Assembly: GCA_902557655.1 (NCBI GenBank)
Contig: CACEAZ010000011.1
Coordinates: 1-54,855 of the forward strand
From: an uncultured Bacteroidota bacterium
GTDB taxonomy: Bacteria; Bacteroidota; Bacteroidia; Flavobacteriales; Flavobacteriaceae
Direction: 5' to 3'
DNA: 54,855 nucleotides
A model generated the notes under the pieces. It was not told the DNA's origin, ran no database searches, and saw only the letters and a list, made by a program, of their open reading frames with translations. The position numbers and the translations under genes are program-made. Shown piece after piece: positions 1-34,880 of this stretch (its first letter is position 1; each line of letters begins with the position of its first letter).

Positions 1-3000
1 CTCCATAAAGCATCTCTAAGATCTGAACATCTGTACTATCTGCATTACCAGACATTACTACTGCGCCGTCAGCGTCTTGGATTTCCCAAGTAATCTCTGA
101 TGGCCAAGATCCAGGTGCTGCCATGAATACTTCAAATGAACAATCAGGATCAACTGGATCAGCACATACTCCGTCTGTACATACAGCAAATACATAACAG
201 AACTCAGCATCTCCAGAGAATTCTGGTACTATTCTATCATTGTAGTTGTCTGCATCTGCACAGTCTTGACCGGATATGTCTTCCTTAGTACCCCAGTCTC
301 CACCGTCATTCGGACTATTTAAGAATGTATAGTTTCCACCGATTTGGTCTGTAGAAATTGGGATTGTTGCTGTCCATACTCCGTCGCCGTCATCATCTGA
401 CATCGCAACTCCGTCAGCTCCACCTAAGATTCCACCACCCATGTACATTCCATTAGCACCTACTTCAATTGCTGTAGCGTCTAAGTTGAATGTTACATTG
501 TAAACTACGCCTGGTGTTTCACCTGCACATAAGTTCCAGAAAACAGTTGGTAAGACGATGTCTTCACCAGCAACCGTTAAGGATCTGTTTGTATAAGTTC
601 CATCAGTAACTGTACATCCTTCTATTGCTTCTGAGAATTCCTCTTGAGCAGACCATCCGTTAATAGTGAACTTGTATTCGTAGTCTCCGTCTGCAAGCTC
701 CATTGTAAGTGTCCAGATTCCGTCTCCGTCATCGTCAGACATTGGGTTACATTCACCACACCATCCGACAAAGTTTCCGTTTAAGTAAACTATATCAGTC
801 TCTGCTAATCCTCCAGGATAGTTACTCGTGTCTACACTAAATGTAACATCAGAAGTAGTCGCTGGAGCAGGACAAGTTCCGTCTGATTCACAGCTTCCAA
901 AACAATGTTGTATTGTCATAGCATCACCTGTAATTTCAGGTAATATTCTATCATCATAGTTGGCTGGATCTGCACACTCTTGTCCATTTAAGACTTCTTT
1001 TGTACCCCAGTCATTTTCGTTAGTCGGGCTATTTAAGAATATGTAGTTACCTGTTGTGCCTTGGTCTAAGTTAACTGTTACTTCCCATGTACCGTCACCA
1101 TCAGCATCTGACATCATGTAAGCCATAGCATTACCTAAAACACCACCACCAGCATACATACCGTTAGGACCAACTTCGATGTTCGCAGTATTTACCGTAA
1201 AGGTAACAGCTGTTGTAGCTGGACCACAAGAGGCAGTAACCTCAACTTCACTACCTGTAGCAGATGAAGCAACTACATTGCCTTCTGAGTCTAAGATATC
1301 GTAAGAGGTTTCAGAATCGTATGAGCCTGATGTCCATGAAGATGTAATAACATCACCTGAATTTATACCAAATGAAACAACCTGAGCTTCACCGGCACCA
1401 GCGGCAGAAGTATTTGCAAATGAACCTATTGAAATGCCGTTAGCAAATAATTCAACTGAAGCACCATTCCATCCATCACCATAGGAGTCAACCATGGATA
1501 TTGAGTAATTACATTCTGTTACCGTAAAAGTAACTGAAGATTCAACAGCAGGATCTAAGGGTTGGTGATTTGCATCAACCAACGAGAATACAATAGTATG
1601 TGTACCCACCGGCAAATCAGTTAATGTAAGAGGATCAGCAGAGTAAACCATTACAGTGTCTCCACCATTCAATGAATAGTGAATGTGTCCGTCTACACCA
1701 TCTCCTTGGCCAACGGTGAAGTTAGTAATATCAAATGAGAATGTTGCTGAATTATCAGTTACAGAACCAGTAGCAGCAAAAGAAATTGCATTTGCATCAA
1801 TACATTCAATGGATGTAGAAGCTACACTTCCGCCTTCCATAGTATATAAATTACCACCTACACTGATTCCTCCAGAATTCCATCCATCTCCAAAAGAATC
1901 GATCAAAAATAATGTGTAAGTATCACCATATGACATTTCTAAAACCTGAACAGTATCACTAGATCCAGTACCTGACATTACTACTGCGCCGTCAGCGTCT
2001 TGGATTTCCCATGTAATTTCCTCTGGGTAATTTCCTGGATATGCCATGAATACCTCAAATGAACAGTCGGCTGACGTAGGATTAATAGATTCTGAAGCAA
2101 ATAAAATCTGTTGTATATCCATTTCACCTGCAGAAGCAGTAGCTCCATCGCCTGGATTTTCTACTAGCTGGAACCACCAACTAGACTGAGTTTCTGACCA
2201 ATTTGTAAAAGCTGATAAATCAACTTCTACAGTTTGAGCTTCAGAGGAATTAGGAGTAATATCTGATGTTGAGAATTCGTTTCCGCCACTTGGTGAAACA
2301 AATGTCAATTTGTTTTTAGGAGAATTATTGACAAGTGTAACTTGTACATACTTATAAGTGTCTGCATCAACACTGTACAAGCCAGATTGTTCTAATTTTG
2401 GATATGGGCTTTGATCGGCTATGTCTAAATGCAATTCACCAGCAACTGGCTGAGACATAGTAACTCCATTTGCACTAACAAATCCTTCAGGATCAGAAGT
2501 ATCATCAAAAGTATAATCTATTCTTGGTGTAGCTGGAATAGATTCTACTATTTCTATGTTATCAAATAAAATATCACCAGAATAAACATTATTATTTACA
2601 CCACCTCCTTGCTTAAATCTAAAGTTAATGGTGCCTAGAGTTCCATTCCAATTCCCATTACTTGACATATTAATGTAGTGAGTAACAAAATCTGCATCAT
2701 TTGCAGAAATTCCATCAAAATTTGTAAAAGAATTTGAACCATTTGTAGTAGTAATCACCTGAACCCTAGTGTTTCCTGTTGTGTTCTTGATTGTTAATGC
2801 AATGTAGTTGCCAACAGACGTGTCTATCATTGCATCCTCGTTTTTCATATTAGGGTTTGCAGAGCCGCCGTTACCATCTTCATTAGGTGAATTGATTGTG
2901 TAAGTTGCATAAGAATCTCCAGCTGTTACACTTGAGTAATTTGATCCAACAAAGTTTTCGTCAGTACCATTAAAATCCCAAGGCGGGGCAGTCTGAGAAA

Positions 3001-3058
3001 ACATTGTAAAATTAAAAAATAGCAACAAAGCTATAACGATTGAGTAAAGTTTGTTCAT
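1..3058 (-). CDS. Multimodular secreted carbohydrate-binding-like protein, 3' end beyond window
   Basis: The frame is open from the ATG at 3058 to the left edge, giving at least 1,019 residues with no stop, so the C-terminus is missing. It starts with a signal peptide (MNKLYSIVIALLLFF, ending near FSQ). Two jelly-roll-like segments follow (about residues 23-165 and 170-320). Next come modules with DSFGDGWNS (about 387) and SYGDGWNG (about 526). Two related modules containing NGMYxGGG and DGDGxW then flank one segment with VYLNGNFVGW, which looks like an E-set/CBM48-type fold. A repeat of the module seen near residue 350 begins at the cut edge. No catalytic motif is visible. It is the last gene seen in the minus-strand polysaccharide locus, 33 bp after a small binding protein. 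A cell-surface glycan-binding or T9SS-exported protein is likely, but the missing end could hold an enzyme or sorting domain. Confidence 0.8.
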   Translation of the reverse strand, partial: MNKLYSIVIALLLFFNFTMFSQTAPPWDFNGTDENFVGSNYSSVTAGDSYATYTINSPNEDGNGGSANPNMKNEDAMIDTSVGNYIALTIKNTTGNTRVQVITTTNGSNSFTNFDGISANDADFVTHYINMSSNGNWNGTLGTINFRFKQGGGVNNNVYSGDILFDNIEIVESIPATPRIDYTFDDTSDPEGFVSANGVTMSQPVAGELHLDIADQSPYPKLEQSGLYSVDADTYKYVQVTLVNNSPKNKLTFVSPSGGNEFSTSDITPNSSEAQTVEVDLSAFTNWSETQSSWWFQLVENPGDGATASAGEMDIQQILFASESINPTSADCSFEVFMAYPGNYPEEITWEIQDADGAVVMSGTGSSDTVQVLEMSYGDTYTLFLIDSFGDGWNSGGISVGGNLYTMEGGSVASTSIECIDANAISFAATGSVTDNSATFSFDITNFTVGQGDGVDGHIHYSLNGGDTVMVYSADPLTLTDLPVGTHTIVFSLVDANHQPLDPAVESSVTFTVTECNYSISMVDSYGDGWNGASVELFANGISIGSFANTSAAGAGEAQVVSFGINSGDVITSSWTSGSYDSETSYDILDSEGNVVASSATGSEVEVTASCGPATTAVTFTVNTANIEVGPNGMYAGGGVLGNAMAYMMSDADGDGTWEVTVNLDQGTTGNYIFLNSPTNENDWGTKEVLNGQECADPANYDDRILPEITGDAMTIQHCFGSCESDGTCPAPATTSDVTFSVDTSNYPGGLAETDIVYLNGNFVGWCGECNPMSDDDGDGIWTLTMELADGDYEYKFTINGWSAQEEFSEAIEGCTVTDGTYTNRSLTVAGEDIVLPTVFWNLCAGETPGVVYNVTFNLDATAIEVGANGMYMGGGILGGADGVAMSDDDGDGVWTATIPISTDQIGGNYTFLNSPNDGGDWGTKEDISGQDCADADNYNDRIVPEFSGDAEFCYVFAVCTDGVCADPVDPDCSFEVFMAAPGSWPSEITWEIQDADGAVVMSGNADSTDVQILEMLYG
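51..88. repeat. 38-nt exact intragenic repeat, copy A
   Basis: Identical over 38 bases to 1974-2011. The offset is 1,923 bp, which is 641 codons, so both copies are read in the same frame and encode the same WEIQDADGAVVMSG stretch of a repeated protein module. This indicates a fairly recent in-frame module duplication. Confidence 0.85.
1974..2011. repeat. 38-nt exact intragenic repeat, copy B
   Basis: Second copy of the 38-base exact repeat at 51-88. The surrounding protein similarity is longer (DCSFEVFMA.PG..P.EITWEI...), so this is the best-conserved core of a duplicated module. Confidence 0.85.
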
Positions 3059-3091
3059 AATAAATAGTTTTTTGTAATTTAATTTAATGAT

Positions 3092-27614: not shown

Positions 27615-28283
27615 TTAATTTGGTGAAAGAACAATTACAAATTCTCCTTTCGGTTTATTTTTTTCAAAATGTTTGATTGATTCTTTAATTGTACCTCTAA
27701 ATGTTTCTTCAAATAGTTTTGTCAACTCCCTAGATACACTTATTAAACTTTCGTCATTAAAGTAATTTGAAAAATCATTTAATGTTTTTAATAGCCTGTG
27801 AGGGGACTCATAAAATACCATTGTCTTTTTTTCTTCTGCTATTTGTTTTAGTCTTTTAGTTCTTCCCTTTTTAACAGGTAAAAAGCCCTCAAAAGAAAAT
27901 CTATCTATAGGTAATCCTGAGCAAACTAAAGCTGGTACAAAAGCTGTTGGGCCAGGTAAACATTCAATATCAACTTCATGCTTTACACATTCACGAACCA
28001 ACAAAAAACCAGGGTCTGAAATACCCGGTGTACCTGCATCAGAAATTAAGGCAATTTCAATATTATCATTAAGCTTATTAATTATATATTCTAATTTTTT
28101 ATGCTCATTATGCATGTGAAAAGATTCAACAGCTGTTTTAATATTATAGTGTTTTAATAATTTTAATGAAGTTCTTGTATCCTCTGCTAAAATAAGATCT
28201 GCCGATTTCAGCACTTCGATAGACCGCAAAGTAATATCTCCTAAATTTCCAATTGGGGTTGACACAATGAATAGCTTGCTCAT
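27615..28283 (-). CDS. rsmI: 16S rRNA (cytidine(1402)-2'-O)-methyltransferase
   Basis: The 222-residue protein belongs to the tetrapyrrole-methylase fold. It has the RsmI signatures VSTPIGNLGDITLRSIEVL, AEDTRTSLKLLKHY, LISDAGTPGISDPG, CLPGPTAFVPALVCSGLP and VFYESPHRL. It methylates the 2'-OH of C1402 in the ribosomal P-site region using S-adenosylmethionine. The length is at the short end of the family because the C-terminal extension is absent. It is the first gene of the five-gene minus-strand run and is divergent from tdk, with a 113-bp AT-rich spacer. Confidence 0.96.
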   Translation of the reverse strand: MSKLFIVSTPIGNLGDITLRSIEVLKSADLILAEDTRTSLKLLKHYNIKTAVESFHMHNEHKKLEYIINKLNDNIEIALISDAGTPGISDPGFLLVRECVKHEVDIECLPGPTAFVPALVCSGLPIDRFSFEGFLPVKKGRTKRLKQIAEEKKTMVFYESPHRLLKTLNDFSNYFNDESLISVSRELTKLFEETFRGTIKESIKHFEKNKPKGEFVIVLSPN

Positions 28284-30118: not shown

Positions 30119-33100
30119 TTAGTTAATCTTAATTACACGCTTTGTTGAGATTGAGCTTTTGTCAAATATTTTTATCAAATATACCCCATCGTCATATAGA
30201 CTCATATCAATTGTTGATACGTTGAAATATCTGTACAGCCTTTGACCAGTCAAAGTATAAATTTCAATATCATATTTTTGTGATTGTCCACTAATGTACA
30301 AAATGTCATTTACCGGATTAGGGTAAATTTTAACCTGATTAAAGTCTGTTGACGATACAACAGAAAGATTTTCATTGTTATGTGCATTGGGGCTCCCAAA
30401 TTCATTTAGACAATCCCAATTTTCTGCAACAGAATTATCCAGCTCAGGGTTTATTAGCTCTAAGGTGTAGCCTGTACCGTCAGCACACAAAGGCCAATCT
30501 GAAGAGCTGGCAGGGCAAAATGCAAATATATTTTCACCTTCCAAAGTATCTCCATAGTCTCCTGAGGAAATTATATTTCCATCACCATCGATTATTTCAA
30601 ACGAAACTTCTTCTGACCAATCGCCATCTATCCAAATTAATTCAATGGAATCACCCAGGGTTGCTTCAAATAGAATGCTGTCAAAATCTCCATTTTCAAA
30701 GGTTGCCTGCTCAACAACAACCTCTCCGTTTAAAAGAACACTCACTGCATTTCCATTCCATCCGTCTCCGTAAGAGTCAATCATGTTAAGAGTATGATTA
30801 CAAATAGGATCAGAATCATCAATATCGTAGTAAACTTCGTCAATTAGTTTAGTTTCTGAATTAAATAGTCTTACAGCATCAGAACCACCAAGACCAAACC
30901 CTAATTCCCCTATAAACGGAATTCCAGGGAAGGAGTTGCTAAAATCAGACTCATCTCGAACAATTACCAAAAAGCCCTCTGCATCAATTTGCGTTGATTC
31001 TGGAATTTGATAAATATGATTGTTATTATCATCCCTAATTTGCCAATCTGATAAGTCTATCGAAAATGGCTTAGGGTTGTACAATTCTATCCAATCATTT
31101 GAGCTAAATTCTTCACCAGATCTATAATTAATCTCATTTATTATTACCGATTCAATTTCAACCCGCGCCGAATCTTCGAATGAGCAAATGTTTTGCGAGT
31201 CAAGTACAACGACATTGTAAAGTCCTGATGGTAATCCAGGAAAATAATTATCATCGAAAAAAGTCTGCCCTCCGTCAATACTGTATTGGTAGGGGCCAAT
31301 ACCTGAATTTGGAGTTATTGTAATGCTTCCCTCAGTGGATGTGCTTGATGGAACCCCAGTAACTTGTATATCTACATTTGTTAAGCTGCAAAATTCTATT
31401 GTAACGTGTTGTTCGAACTCACATGTACCAGCAGATCCAATAACCAAAATATCATATTCTCCAGGTGATAAATCTGTGAAACTATTTGTTTCAAAAAATG
31501 TTAGCCCTCCATCAATACTGTACTGAAATGGACCAACACCAGACGACACTATAATTGAGATCAATCCATCATTGGTCTCCTCAGAGCTTGTGTTTGTAAC
31601 ATTGACATCGGCTGTAATTTCACATCCGCCATCACCTAAACAAAATGTTTCCTGTGTAAAATTGTCAAACACTCCATTGTTCTCAAAAATTACACTTCCG
31701 CTTGAATTTAGCATCATGAAATTACCTTCACCATATCCACAACATATTCCATCACCATACGAGTCAAACATATCTAAAGTAAAACAAGATTCATAGTTAA
31801 CACAAATGTCTTCAGAGTAATAATCTGTATTTGAATCTAAAGATCCTGTAGATATAACTTCATTTGAAATGTTATCATATAATTTCCAAGAAGTTTCTTC
31901 CGGGTAATTATCAGCATTTATGATTAAGGTAACAATATCATAGTTGGAATCAAGCGATGTCGTTGTTGTAACAGTGTCGTTAAGAGAATTCTCATCACTT
32001 TGAGAGTTAATTGAAAATATATCTATTGTAACCTCATTTGATTGCTGAAGGTTTTCATCTAAGATTAAAGTTATAATTTCTTGCTCAGAGAATGAGATAT
32101 CAAGCAAGTCGAAATTTACAAAAGATGAAATGCCATTTACCTCAGTCTGGATTTCAACTTCGTTAATAACAGAATCTCCAAGGTTTGAAATAATCAAATC
32201 AATTTCAACAATTTCGTCACATAGAACTTGAAGGCTATTTATTTCTAAAGCCGCATCATGCTGAAGTATATTGCTTACAGTAGTTGTTAATGAATCATTA
32301 TTCTCATATACATCATCAGGATGGCTAATATTTACCGTAATGTCATAATCACCACTCTCGGATAAATCTATTGGAGCTGTAAATTGAAAATCTGATTCTT
32401 CAAAAGGCTCAATAGTTTCGGTAATTGTAAGTGTTTCAACTATTTCATCGTTAAATATGAGCTCAATAACAAAGTCACTCATTTCGTTTAATCCGTAATT
32501 TGCAATTGTTACCAAAACAAGCTCGTCATCACCCAAGCTTGATGATGTCTCGGGATTTATTATCGCCTCAACTGCTAGGTCATAGTCTCCGTTTATATCT
32601 GCCCAAAAGGAGACCCATGGTCTGGCTTGTTTTATAGCTAGTTGGTTTTGAGCTGTAACTTTGTATTCAATATCCATTGCGAAATCGTCTTGTCCAACAA
32701 CATCGTAAAGAATTGCAAATTCTTCGTGAATCACGGTCAAATAATCTCGCATTTGATTCAGATATTCCTCATCCATGATAAGCTCTCCTGCGTTAACTAA
32801 ATTAGAGAGCCTAAGAACCAAATAGCCTCCAGATTGTGTTGGATCTCTATACAATAAAATTTCCTCTGGGACAGAATTTGGATCAGGATTAGTTATCAGT
32901 GATTCACCAACTTGAGTGTTCAGATAAAATGTATCCTCTGTTTCGTAAATTGGATCAATGCTTATTCCGACGCCATTAGATTGCTCTTCTTGAAAATTTG
33001 GATGACAGAGTAGTCCCATGGCTGCTGTAAAGTGATCGATTCTATAAAAATCTCTTTCTTCATAAGCCCTAAAGTTCCACATACTTGCATAAACTTGTTT

Positions 33101-34810
33101 TACAGATTTTGAAATATGGCCCTCGTCAGGATATTGTGTCTTAGATGTATATAAACCTGCCCCACTAAATCCAGGAAGATCCTCGTTATTCGTACTAGAC
33201 CTAACTCTAACTGCTGTACCCTCAGGGAAAGCGTCATGCATCGCTTGAAGATCGTCTAGCATCCACTGAGGCATTGGTGCGTCTTTAATTGCCGTTCTTA
33301 ATGTTTCTAGACGACTAACCCTGAAGTTAATATCGTTTTGAAAACTTGGATTCTCAATTATTGTTTCAACTTCCTCATAAAAGTTATTGAACTGCATAAA
33401 CTCGTCATAATAATAAAACGGAATTCCAAATCCGTCAGGAATTGTGCCCTCTGGAAATTCGAATGTTCTCATTGTTGAGACATTTGAGCATTTTGCACCA
33501 AATGCAGTAGACATTTCAAAATCAATCTCCTCAAGAGGCAGTATCTCAGTGATGCTCAAATCACGAATCGGGAACTGTGGTTCAGACGGTCTTATGTTTT
33601 CATACCATTCGTTAACCTCAGCAAGAGTTGCTTCTCTGATTTCATAGCTATCATTTTCAACCTTATAATATATATATCCATTCAGAAGGCTTGCAATTTC
33701 ATTTATTGAAAGTGGGTCTGCTATATATGCGTTGGGAACATTGTCTTGAATTGCCCTTAGATTTACATGAGAAAGCGGGGTTTGAACAACTGATGTGATT
33801 ATCCCCCCAACTCTTGGTAACGAATTTGGTAGCGCATCATAAAGTACTATATCCCTACTTCCGGGTGTTTCACTTAGATCTTGCATGTGTCTGAAATACC
33901 CAAATCCTTCAGCTAAATGAAATGGTATGTAGTTTATTTCTGCAAAAACATCAGTTTCTAAAACTACATCAAATCTTGAATCAACAAATTCGTCGGCATA
34001 ATTGTTTAGGTGATTGTTTTCGTCTGCTTGGCCTATAAAATGATTCATATTATTTTGTAGAAAAGGCATACTTGCGACCAATAATTCGTAGGTTCTTTGA
34101 GTTTCTTCAAAATTGTATGCATCACCAAATGAAAAATTAAAAGAATATGTGCCTATAATTCCATTTGGTAATATGGCGTTGGGATTAAAGACAATTTCAC
34201 CCGATCCGTCATCCCCAGTAACCGAGGCGTCAATTCCATTCCAAAAACTAGCGTGGATTGTATAAGTGTTACTGTTAATAAAATAAACCTTTGGCTCAGG
34301 TGTATCCCTGTCTAGTATTCCAAACTTAACGTACAATTGATCGTCTAAAAACGGGGCCCAGCTAACATTATTAATTGTTGCCAGCTGCATGAAAGTATCA
34401 GCATCTGGAATTGACGTTGAGCCGTCAATAATATCAATTGCAGGTGCATTATTAAAAGGAGAATCAACTGGCATATTATTAAACTCTGTCATGTCGTCGA
34501 TTCCATCACCATCGTAATCGTCTGGGTCATTAACATCATGCTCAGTTATAGAATACTTTTCCAGTGGATAAGCCTGTGATGGCTCTGAAATAATCATAGT
34601 TCCGTTCAGCCCCACAGTAAGAGATGTAGCCCAGTTAAAGTCTGGGTTGTGCTGTGCGTGGAGAATATAATATTTGCCCTGCTCACCTTGTATGGATAAT
34701 TGAACTTGGCCAAGATTATTGACTGAATAATTATCTATTGTAACAAATTGAGCAAAACAAAAGGTTTGAAAAAAAAGAAAAAAAAAGATTGAAGATATAT
34801 GCTTGCTCAT
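30119..34810 (-). CDS. Secreted dikinase-like protein (His domain, ATP-grasp, CARDB-like, SprB repeats, lamin tail, T9SS)
   Basis: The 1,563-residue protein has a signal peptide (to FCFAQ, about 21) and a DYDGDGIDD calcium-loop near 98. A phosphohistidine-like domain follows, with TPLSHVNLRA (His348) similar to the PEP-utiliser/glucan water dikinase His motif. An ATP-grasp domain (about 430-740) has FGAKCSN (Lys440), VRVRSSTNNEDLPGFSGAGL (Arg537, Glu543), DIEY (Glu715) and IKQARP (Gln728, Arg730). Then come two CARDB-like domains (about 745-960), a DSYGDGICCGYG module, two SprB-type repeats, a lamin-tail domain (IINEINYRSGEEF onward), a SYGDGWNG module and a T9SS type A domain (IYPNPVNDILYI). 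The His-then-ATP-grasp order is that of glucan water dikinases. The key residues appear intact, which would make this an extracellular phosphotransferase or a reused ATP-binding fold. The substrate is unknown. Confidence 0.88.
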   Translation of the reverse strand: MSKHISSIFFFLFFQTFCFAQFVTIDNYSVNNLGQVQLSIQGEQGKYYILHAQHNPDFNWATSLTVGLNGTMIISEPSQAYPLEKYSITEHDVNDPDDYDGDGIDDMTEFNNMPVDSPFNNAPAIDIIDGSTSIPDADTFMQLATINNVSWAPFLDDQLYVKFGILDRDTPEPKVYFINSNTYTIHASFWNGIDASVTGDDGSGEIVFNPNAILPNGIIGTYSFNFSFGDAYNFEETQRTYELLVASMPFLQNNMNHFIGQADENNHLNNYADEFVDSRFDVVLETDVFAEINYIPFHLAEGFGYFRHMQDLSETPGSRDIVLYDALPNSLPRVGGIITSVVQTPLSHVNLRAIQDNVPNAYIADPLSINEIASLLNGYIYYKVENDSYEIREATLAEVNEWYENIRPSEPQFPIRDLSITEILPLEEIDFEMSTAFGAKCSNVSTMRTFEFPEGTIPDGFGIPFYYYDEFMQFNNFYEEVETIIENPSFQNDINFRVSRLETLRTAIKDAPMPQWMLDDLQAMHDAFPEGTAVRVRSSTNNEDLPGFSGAGLYTSKTQYPDEGHISKSVKQVYASMWNFRAYEERDFYRIDHFTAAMGLLCHPNFQEEQSNGVGISIDPIYETEDTFYLNTQVGESLITNPDPNSVPEEILLYRDPTQSGGYLVLRLSNLVNAGELIMDEEYLNQMRDYLTVIHEEFAILYDVVGQDDFAMDIEYKVTAQNQLAIKQARPWVSFWADINGDYDLAVEAIINPETSSSLGDDELVLVTIANYGLNEMSDFVIELIFNDEIVETLTITETIEPFEESDFQFTAPIDLSESGDYDITVNISHPDDVYENNDSLTTTVSNILQHDAALEINSLQVLCDEIVEIDLIISNLGDSVINEVEIQTEVNGISSFVNFDLLDISFSEQEIITLILDENLQQSNEVTIDIFSINSQSDENSLNDTVTTTTSLDSNYDIVTLIINADNYPEETSWKLYDNISNEVISTGSLDSNTDYYSEDICVNYESCFTLDMFDSYGDGICCGYGEGNFMMLNSSGSVIFENNGVFDNFTQETFCLGDGGCEITADVNVTNTSSEETNDGLISIIVSSGVGPFQYSIDGGLTFFETNSFTDLSPGEYDILVIGSAGTCEFEQHVTIEFCSLTNVDIQVTGVPSSTSTEGSITITPNSGIGPYQYSIDGGQTFFDDNYFPGLPSGLYNVVVLDSQNICSFEDSARVEIESVIINEINYRSGEEFSSNDWIELYNPKPFSIDLSDWQIRDDNNNHIYQIPESTQIDAEGFLVIVRDESDFSNSFPGIPFIGELGFGLGGSDAVRLFNSETKLIDEVYYDIDDSDPICNHTLNMIDSYGDGWNGNAVSVLLNGEVVVEQATFENGDFDSILFEATLGDSIELIWIDGDWSEEVSFEIIDGDGNIISSGDYGDTLEGENIFAFCPASSSDWPLCADGTGYTLELINPELDNSVAENWDCLNEFGSPNAHNNENLSVVSSTDFNQVKIYPNPVNDILYISGQSQKYDIEIYTLTGQRLYRYFNVSTIDMSLYDDGVYLIKIFDKSSISTKRVIKIN

Positions 34811-34880
34811 TATTAATCTAAACTGTCTACAATATATTGTAATTTAGAGTTAAAAGATGTAATAATCACAAAAAGTTTAT

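Follow-up and report, generated by a model that had tools for sequence, protein, structure and literature searches.

Prediction of an exported dikinase with a histidine domain ahead of its ATP-grasp domain in a Flavobacteriaceae genome and its relatives among the Bacteroidota

Could a dikinase operate outside the bacterial cell? Known dikinases are cytosolic or plastid enzymes, and the bacterial envelope is generally regarded as free of ATP. The question is raised by a gene in a stretch of 54,855 nucleotides (the window; GenBank assembly GCA_902557655.1, contig CACEAZ010000011.1, positions 1 to 54,855) from an uncultured, probably marine member of the Flavobacteriaceae, whose 1.39-Mb genome assembly (referred to here as G000; completeness, 81.7%) carries it in a single copy. 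A sequence-only reading of the window had placed a secreted, dikinase-like protein in the open reading frame (ORF) at 30119-34810 on the minus strand, and this ORF and all motif and residue positions named in it were confirmed exactly. On balance, we think it somewhat more likely than not that the product works as a dikinase on the cell surface, which it would reach by way of the Sec system and the type IX secretion system (T9SS), since it combines an ATP-grasp domain of the phosphoenolpyruvate (PEP) synthase type, a histidine domain ahead of it (His-first order), an invariant active site, and export signals.

The ATP-grasp domain is matched over the Pfam cut-off by PF01326 (PPDK_N) at residues 437 to 731 (E 2.5e-22), and the ATP-site residues are present, as in other members of this superfamily. 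The catalytic motifs are TPLSHVNLRA (His348), FGAK (Lys440), RSSTNNED (Arg537/Glu543), DIEY (Glu715), and QARP (Gln728/Arg730). As for a T9SS cargo, there is a signal peptide, a C-terminal sorting domain matched by both Por_Secre_tail (over the Pfam cut-off; residues 1495 to 1560) and TIGR04183 (NCBIfam; residues 1495 to 1561, 41 bits versus a cut-off of 23), and the T9SS protein SprA is encoded in G000. The signal peptide and the CARDB-like, SprB-type, lamin-tail, and T9SS domains of the sequence-only reading were thus all recovered, the peptide by eye and the domains at Pfam cut-offs.

A scan of genome contigs yielded 128 stretches encoding a relative, and the best 80 were kept (loci L031 to L110; best-segment identity, 66 to 93%). 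The taxa given in their titles are Flavobacteriales, Saprospiraceae, Chitinophagales, and Crocinitomicaceae, together with a single metagenome-assembled genome labelled "Euryarchaeota"; the last (L084, 78% identical in its best segment) is probably a mis-binned contig. Seventy-eight of these loci were aligned with the window protein, leaving out L089 (cut) and L091 (one in-frame stop); A1 took 31 loci and A2 and A4 took 74 of the 80, with the window added. His348, Lys440, Arg537, Glu543, Glu715, Gln728, and Arg730 are invariant in all 79 rows, a retention that, judged from the alignment, is far beyond chance; since the active site is kept in relatives, the enzyme probably works. The systematic loss of these residues, or the absence of profile and fold matches, that the sequence-only reading had named as fatal to it was therefore not seen. 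All 79 rows also have a hydrophobic N terminus (at least 6/10), and a strict A-x-A signal pattern matches 40 and fails in 39, including the window protein. A T9SS-type tail motif was found in 66 of the 80 relatives; of the 14 without it, 13 are ORFs truncated at a contig end and one, L074, is complete.

Constraint is concentrated in the catalytic module. Its dN/dS is 0.013 to 0.051 in 11 pairs (of 15 planned, three proved saturated and one was omitted), with dS below 0.4 in four pairs and above 1.6 in the seven whose values are rough. Measured against L031, 57 relatives have a median identity of 81% in the module and 48% in the tail, with 46% in the product of a neighbouring phosphatase gene described below, and the 830-amino-acid relative in genome G104 consists of a signal peptide, the module, and a T9SS tail, with nothing else. 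The module would thus seem to be the part that does the work, with the CARDB/SprB/LTD (lamin tail domain) stretch as a variable stalk. The N-terminal domain (N-domain) is likewise conserved within group A, the group of His-first proteins to which the window protein belongs.

The assignment of the histidine domain comes from profile-profile alignment. When 40 His-first relatives (18 from group A and 11 each from groups B and C, introduced below) were aligned with nine PEP synthases by hhalign, the two sets matched with a probability of 83.3% (E 8.5e-6), His on His, while three mismatched controls gave 0.1 to 1.0%. In fold searches, rifampin phosphotransferase (RPH) and HpeI were the nearest solved folds besides PEP synthase; the match lists of both searches were filled by the ATP-grasp part, and a BFVD search gave no match at E<=0.001. 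Pfam, the alignments, and the fold matches together support an exported protein with His-first order and an ATP-grasp domain of the PEP-synthase/RPH type.

In the plant and algal glucan water dikinase (GWD) and phosphoglucan water dikinase (PWD), the phospho-His domain lies before the ATP-grasp domain. The window protein has the same order (residues ~291 to 400, then 422 to 732), as the sequence-only reading had pointed out, but this arrangement is found outside GWD too, in exported groups B and C and in a Streptomyces protein. GWD and PWD are described as having a PPDK_N ATP-grasp domain at the C-terminal end (PMC11986951) and a phospho-His domain (PMC12892837) and as using dikinase chemistry (PMC7569903), and their structures are said to be still missing (PMC12892837). 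Unlike them, the window protein is predicted to be exported and surface anchored. PF22973 (GWD1_pHisD) scored 11.3 bits versus a cut-off of 27 (E 0.23 in G000) and does not appear in the E<=1 list of the whole-protein hmmscan, and its co-linear matches in several relatives are not above background. No carbohydrate-binding Pfam family, such as CBM45 or CBM20, matched at E<=1 (whether Pfam holds a CBM45 model was left unchecked), and the earlier suggestion of a glucan or algal substrate found no backing here. The protein is GWD-like in domain order, which falls short of identifying it as a GWD; two GWD features were looked for and not found.

PEP synthase and pyruvate phosphate dikinase (PPDK) share with the window protein the ATP-grasp fold and residues and a swivelling His but have the reverse domain order and a PEP/pyruvate barrel, and the window protein alone carries export signals. 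The barrel has no Pfam match in it; CARDB, SprB, LTD, and the sorting tail follow residue 740. The PEP-synthase-type histidine consensus, given as GGxT[SC]HAA in PMC12167813, is also absent, and TPLSHVNLRA stands instead. PEP synthase N-terminal parts are the best NCBIfam match, at 66.5 bits versus a required 598, far under the equivalog cut-offs. RPH has its ATP-grasp domain first, opposite to the order here, and RPH and the two-component HpeHI-type dikinases are cytosolic; the RPH match (40.4 bits versus 999) covers the ATP-grasp part alone. The domains of RPH are named as ATP-grasp, RIF, and His, and HpeHI is described as having its ATP-grasp domain on a separate chain (PMC12167813). Both also differ from the window protein in their acceptor domain. 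CotH extracellular kinases are bacterial, carry an LTD, reach the surface, and transfer the gamma-phosphate with a protein-kinase-like fold; the LTD and surface fate are shared with the window protein, but the fold is unrelated.

In the favoured reading, the Sec system and then the T9SS would bring the dikinase to the cell surface, where the ATP-grasp domain would move the beta-phosphate of ATP to His348, releasing AMP and Pi. The His domain would then swing, and hand the phosphate on to an acceptor; the conserved N-domain may be the part that binds this acceptor. The acceptor would most likely be a surface or environmental glycan, a surface glycan being our guess, and a small molecule is also conceivable. 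In most relatives, an exported histidine phosphatase encoded by the neighbouring gene could remove the phosphate again. The ATP would come from outside the cell, from lysing algae and bacteria.

This phosphatase, an exported histidine phosphatase superfamily protein of ~175 amino acids, is encoded beside the kinase gene in 60 of the 80 loci. In 56 loci, its gene is upstream of the kinase gene and on the kinase strand; 55 of these genes overlap the kinase gene or lie no more than 344 bases from it, and that of L091, whose kinase frame is broken, is 1010 bases away. In L093, L097, L098, and L099, it lies downstream. PF00300 matched all three phosphatases tested over the cut-off (35.9 to 52.1 bits versus 21.7), the RHxE, RTxxT, and GHS residues are invariant in 60/60, and 22 of the 60 are lipoprotein-like by a simple rule. 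Leaving out L100 to L110 and five loci with <570 bases upstream (L060, L067, L074, L075, and L078, among the 20 loci without the gene), the count becomes 60/64. The next most recurrent real neighbour genes are common to nine loci. As general partners, the window neighbours tdk, alr, accB/C, and the TP_methylase gene (27615-28283) were rejected, being near the kinase gene in 8 to 9 of the 80 relatives; neighbour clusters of 27, 23, 16, 12, and 10 loci turned out to be out-of-frame ORFs within the kinase gene rather than genes. Within genus g1, the phosphatase occurs in 7 of 21 genomes, all 7 within the 10 kinase genomes (Fisher p 0.001, with a match in G365 at E 9.7e-4 excluded, a fragment in G379 included, and no genome >90% complete).

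In the window, the phosphatase gene is missing. The alignment with L032 stops where the saccharopine dehydrogenase gene ends and resumes at the last bases of the phosphatase gene, so that ~570 bases of L032 are left out; this short form is common to L033. Because the phosphatase is present in 60 of the 80 relatives, we infer that the short form reflects a loss rather than a gain in the others.

Surveys of a 60-genome family set and a 296-genome phylum set revealed two other His-first groups, whose members have signal peptides as judged by eye: group B (~625 amino acids) and group C (~968 amino acids). The motifs RSSTNNEDLPxFSGAGLYxS in group A, RSSTNAED..xFxGAGLYxS in group B, and RSDTNMEDL..FxGAGLNLT in group C are all distinct from RSSATAEDLPxASFAG of PEP synthase. 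In a tree of 41 ATP-grasp segments, the three groups and PEP synthase each fell on one side of a branch, with groups A and B joined at 95/95. A 670-amino-acid His-first protein (WP_331760287.1, PEP/pyruvate-binding domain-containing protein) from a plasmid of Streptomyces sp. NBC_01471 forms a long branch of unsure placement in this tree. Like the window protein, it runs from an N-domain through a TPLSH His domain to an ATP-grasp domain; unlike it, it has neither signal peptide nor tail (by eye), and the identity is 25.7%. Its His domain matches those of group A (97.5%) and group B (94.2%) versus 0.6% for PEP synthase in profile-profile comparison, and its N-domain matches that of group B (82.1%, E 1e-5). 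A single N-domain common to all His-first groups was rejected, the comparisons of A with C, B with C, and A with Streptomyces being unrelated. A search of group B against plasmids gave no match. As a side observation, the gene of the group B dikinase adjoins that of a DUF4956-type membrane protein in four of the six loci that were read (L141, L142, L145, and L147), assigned by a Pfam match in L141 and L145 and by likeness in L142 and L147.

Group C bears on the supply of ATP. At L182 to L187 and L195 (genomes G014, G024, G049, G056, G039, G045, and G008), a conserved cluster joins the dikinase gene to two serine-hydrolase-like genes of the Beta-lactamase2 type and one for a TLC-HEAT protein. 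In all six loci read for gene order, the dikinase gene is followed by a serine-hydrolase-like gene of class A (matched by PF13354 in the two tested, L182 and L187) and a convergent gene for a 940-amino-acid TLC ATP/ADP-transporter-like carrier with HEAT repeats, with one extra gene before the carrier in L183 and L184. PF03219 matched in 9 of 10 group C genomes versus 0 of 50 other family genomes; the profile missed G008, whose locus holds the entire cluster, its carrier sharing 66% identity with the L182 one. When the 77 genomes covered by this profile were searched at the protein level, full-length carrier relatives appeared in 10/10 group C genomes versus 0/50 others (Fisher p 1.3e-11, or 1.5e-10 counting G017, which has a 441-amino-acid relative at 22% and no group C dikinase). 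The carrier could feed ATP to the group C dikinase. In this regard, NTT-HEAT proteins are reported to occur in free-living bacteria, the functions of NTT fusion genes being described as unknown (PMC5381601). We suggest only tentatively a wider picture in which Bacteroidota phosphorylate with ATP outside the cytoplasm through at least three exported His-first groups, with group A on the surface and reversed by the phosphatase in most relatives and group C behind an NTT-HEAT carrier delivering ATP to the periplasm.

Several observations weigh against an active surface dikinase of this kind. PF01326, one of the two profiles proposed in the sequence-only reading, matched clearly, but the His-domain profile PF00391 gave no match at E<=1 in the window protein. 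Aligned alone with PEP synthase, the His domains of groups A and B reached 1.8% and 6.7%, and support for the domain therefore comes from the combined set and from group C, which alone gave 73.5%. The two structure models are of middling quality (pLDDT, 68.7 and 61.2), with pLDDT <50 over most of the His domain, also in the second model of His plus ATP-grasp. The group A N-domain is unrelated to that of the Streptomyces protein (0.1%), its likeness to that of group B is suggestive at most (24.9%, E 0.00078), and no database match points to an acceptor. The kinase gene is patchy in genus g1, with a clear match in 10 of 21 genomes, none >90% complete. Beside the kinase gene, the phosphatase is absent in L033, L070, L092, L094, and L100 to L110 (L101 having 290 upstream bases), and searches of the rest of G000 and of the genome of L033 gave no copy; because of this, it is not essential. 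In the genomes of L092 and L094, a copy lies at another site (54 to 55% identical), those of L070, L102, L103, L106, and L107 encode more distant phosphatases (29 to 48%), and none was found in that of L104. Furthermore, extracellular ATP is scarce. Searches of G000 and 15 other group A genomes gave no TLC carrier over the cut-off, and a protein search for relatives of the group C carrier was likewise negative in 16 group A genomes including G000; G361 (group A) has one TLC match, under the cut-off. Since no carrier was found in these 16 genomes, group A must draw on external ATP or function in another way.

Other explanations were weighed. The protein might be a catalytically dead ATP or nucleotide sensor, as the sequence-only reading also allowed, or an adhesin built on the dikinase fold, as its surface site without known ATP supply and its adhesin-like multidomain tail might suggest; the invariant active site and the low dN/dS of the module argue otherwise, His348 would be needless in a pure sensor, and we regard this as quite unlikely. 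The neighbouring phosphatase brings nucleotide scavenging to mind, in which ATP outside the cell would be split into AMP, Pi, and phospho-His and the phosphatase would free the second phosphate, a two-protein apyrase for phosphate-poor cells. The open sea is low in phosphate, and relatives' names such as ALOHA_ZT and TMED16 suggest such a setting; the phosphatase is short, with weak matches to SixA (TIGR00249) in two of three tested (E 2.1e-5 and 3.4e-5, far below the cut-off). Its best subfamily matches are nevertheless CobC and phosphoserine phosphatase, equally weak, the window genome lacks it, and the strongly conserved N-domain suggests an acceptor, which makes scavenging unlikely in our view.

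Phosphorylation of a small molecule as by RPH and HpeHI, for instance to inactivate or trap it, would agree with RPH and HpeI being the nearest solved folds besides PEP synthase. Trapping would presumably be pointless for a surface-anchored protein, however, and RPH was matched in no part other than ATP-grasp; this reading seems rather unlikely. An ordinary PEP synthase or PPDK, mis-annotated or with a chance signal peptide, has the best NCBIfam match in its favour and is refuted by the architecture, with the opposite order and no PEP/pyruvate domain match, as well as by TPLSHVN in place of a TSHAA-type motif and by the sorting tails of the relatives; we consider it very improbable.

If the exported-dikinase reading is true, a surface-anchored, strongly constrained dikinase, together with a phosphatase in most relatives, would amount to reversible phosphorylation outside the cell, with the ATP source in question. 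The link of group C to an ATP/ADP-transporter-like protein makes this question directly testable, and, should the wider picture hold, the NTT-HEAT carriers of free-living bacteria would gain a role. No exported dikinase was among the matches listed in our literature searches (open-licence papers, top-ranked results of large sets). Searches of viral contigs found no relative of the kinase, and PADLOC found nothing. The coordinates of the features are collected in Table 1.

Table 1. Predicted features of the kinase gene and its upstream boundary (positions in the window)
Feature	Position	Strand	Basis
Exported His-first dikinase, group A, 1563 aa, start ATG (predicted)	30119..34810	-	ORF and translation
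Signal peptide, ~residues 1-20, FCFA|Q	34751..34810	-	Sequence by eye
N-domain, ~residues 22-290, candidate acceptor-binding part	33941..34747	-	Conservation in group A
Asp-rich motif D98.D100.D102...D106..E109, calcium-binding type by appearance	34484..34519	-	Invariant columns
Swivelling phospho-histidine domain, ~residues 291-400	33611..33940	-	Profile-profile alignment; weak family matches
His348, predicted phospho-carrier	33767..33769	-	79/79 rows; aligned on PEP-synthase His
ATP-grasp of PEP-synthase type, ~residues 422-732: Lys440, Arg537, Glu543, Glu715, Gln728, Arg730	32615..33547	-	
CARDB domain, residues 744-839	32294..32581	-	Pfam, over cut-off
SprB repeat, best stretch, residues 1159-1183	31262..31336	-	Pfam, over cut-off
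Lamin tail domain (LTD), residues 1221-1328	30827..31150	-	Pfam, over cut-off
T9SS type A sorting tail	30131..30328	-	Pfam and TIGR04183; SprA in G000
Site of exported histidine-phosphatase gene in 56/80 relatives (upstream, same strand), missing here	34811..34880	.	

Two further observations concern the surroundings of this gene. In the G000 assembly, at its 81.7% completeness, the exported kinase is the sole PPDK_N protein, and no PEP synthase or PPDK was found. In addition, a second large ORF of the window (open frame 2-3091, minus strand) contains a stretch at 1241-1516 that resembles kinase residues 1336 to 1424 with 36% identity, and the shared stretch surrounds a DSYGDGWNG motif.
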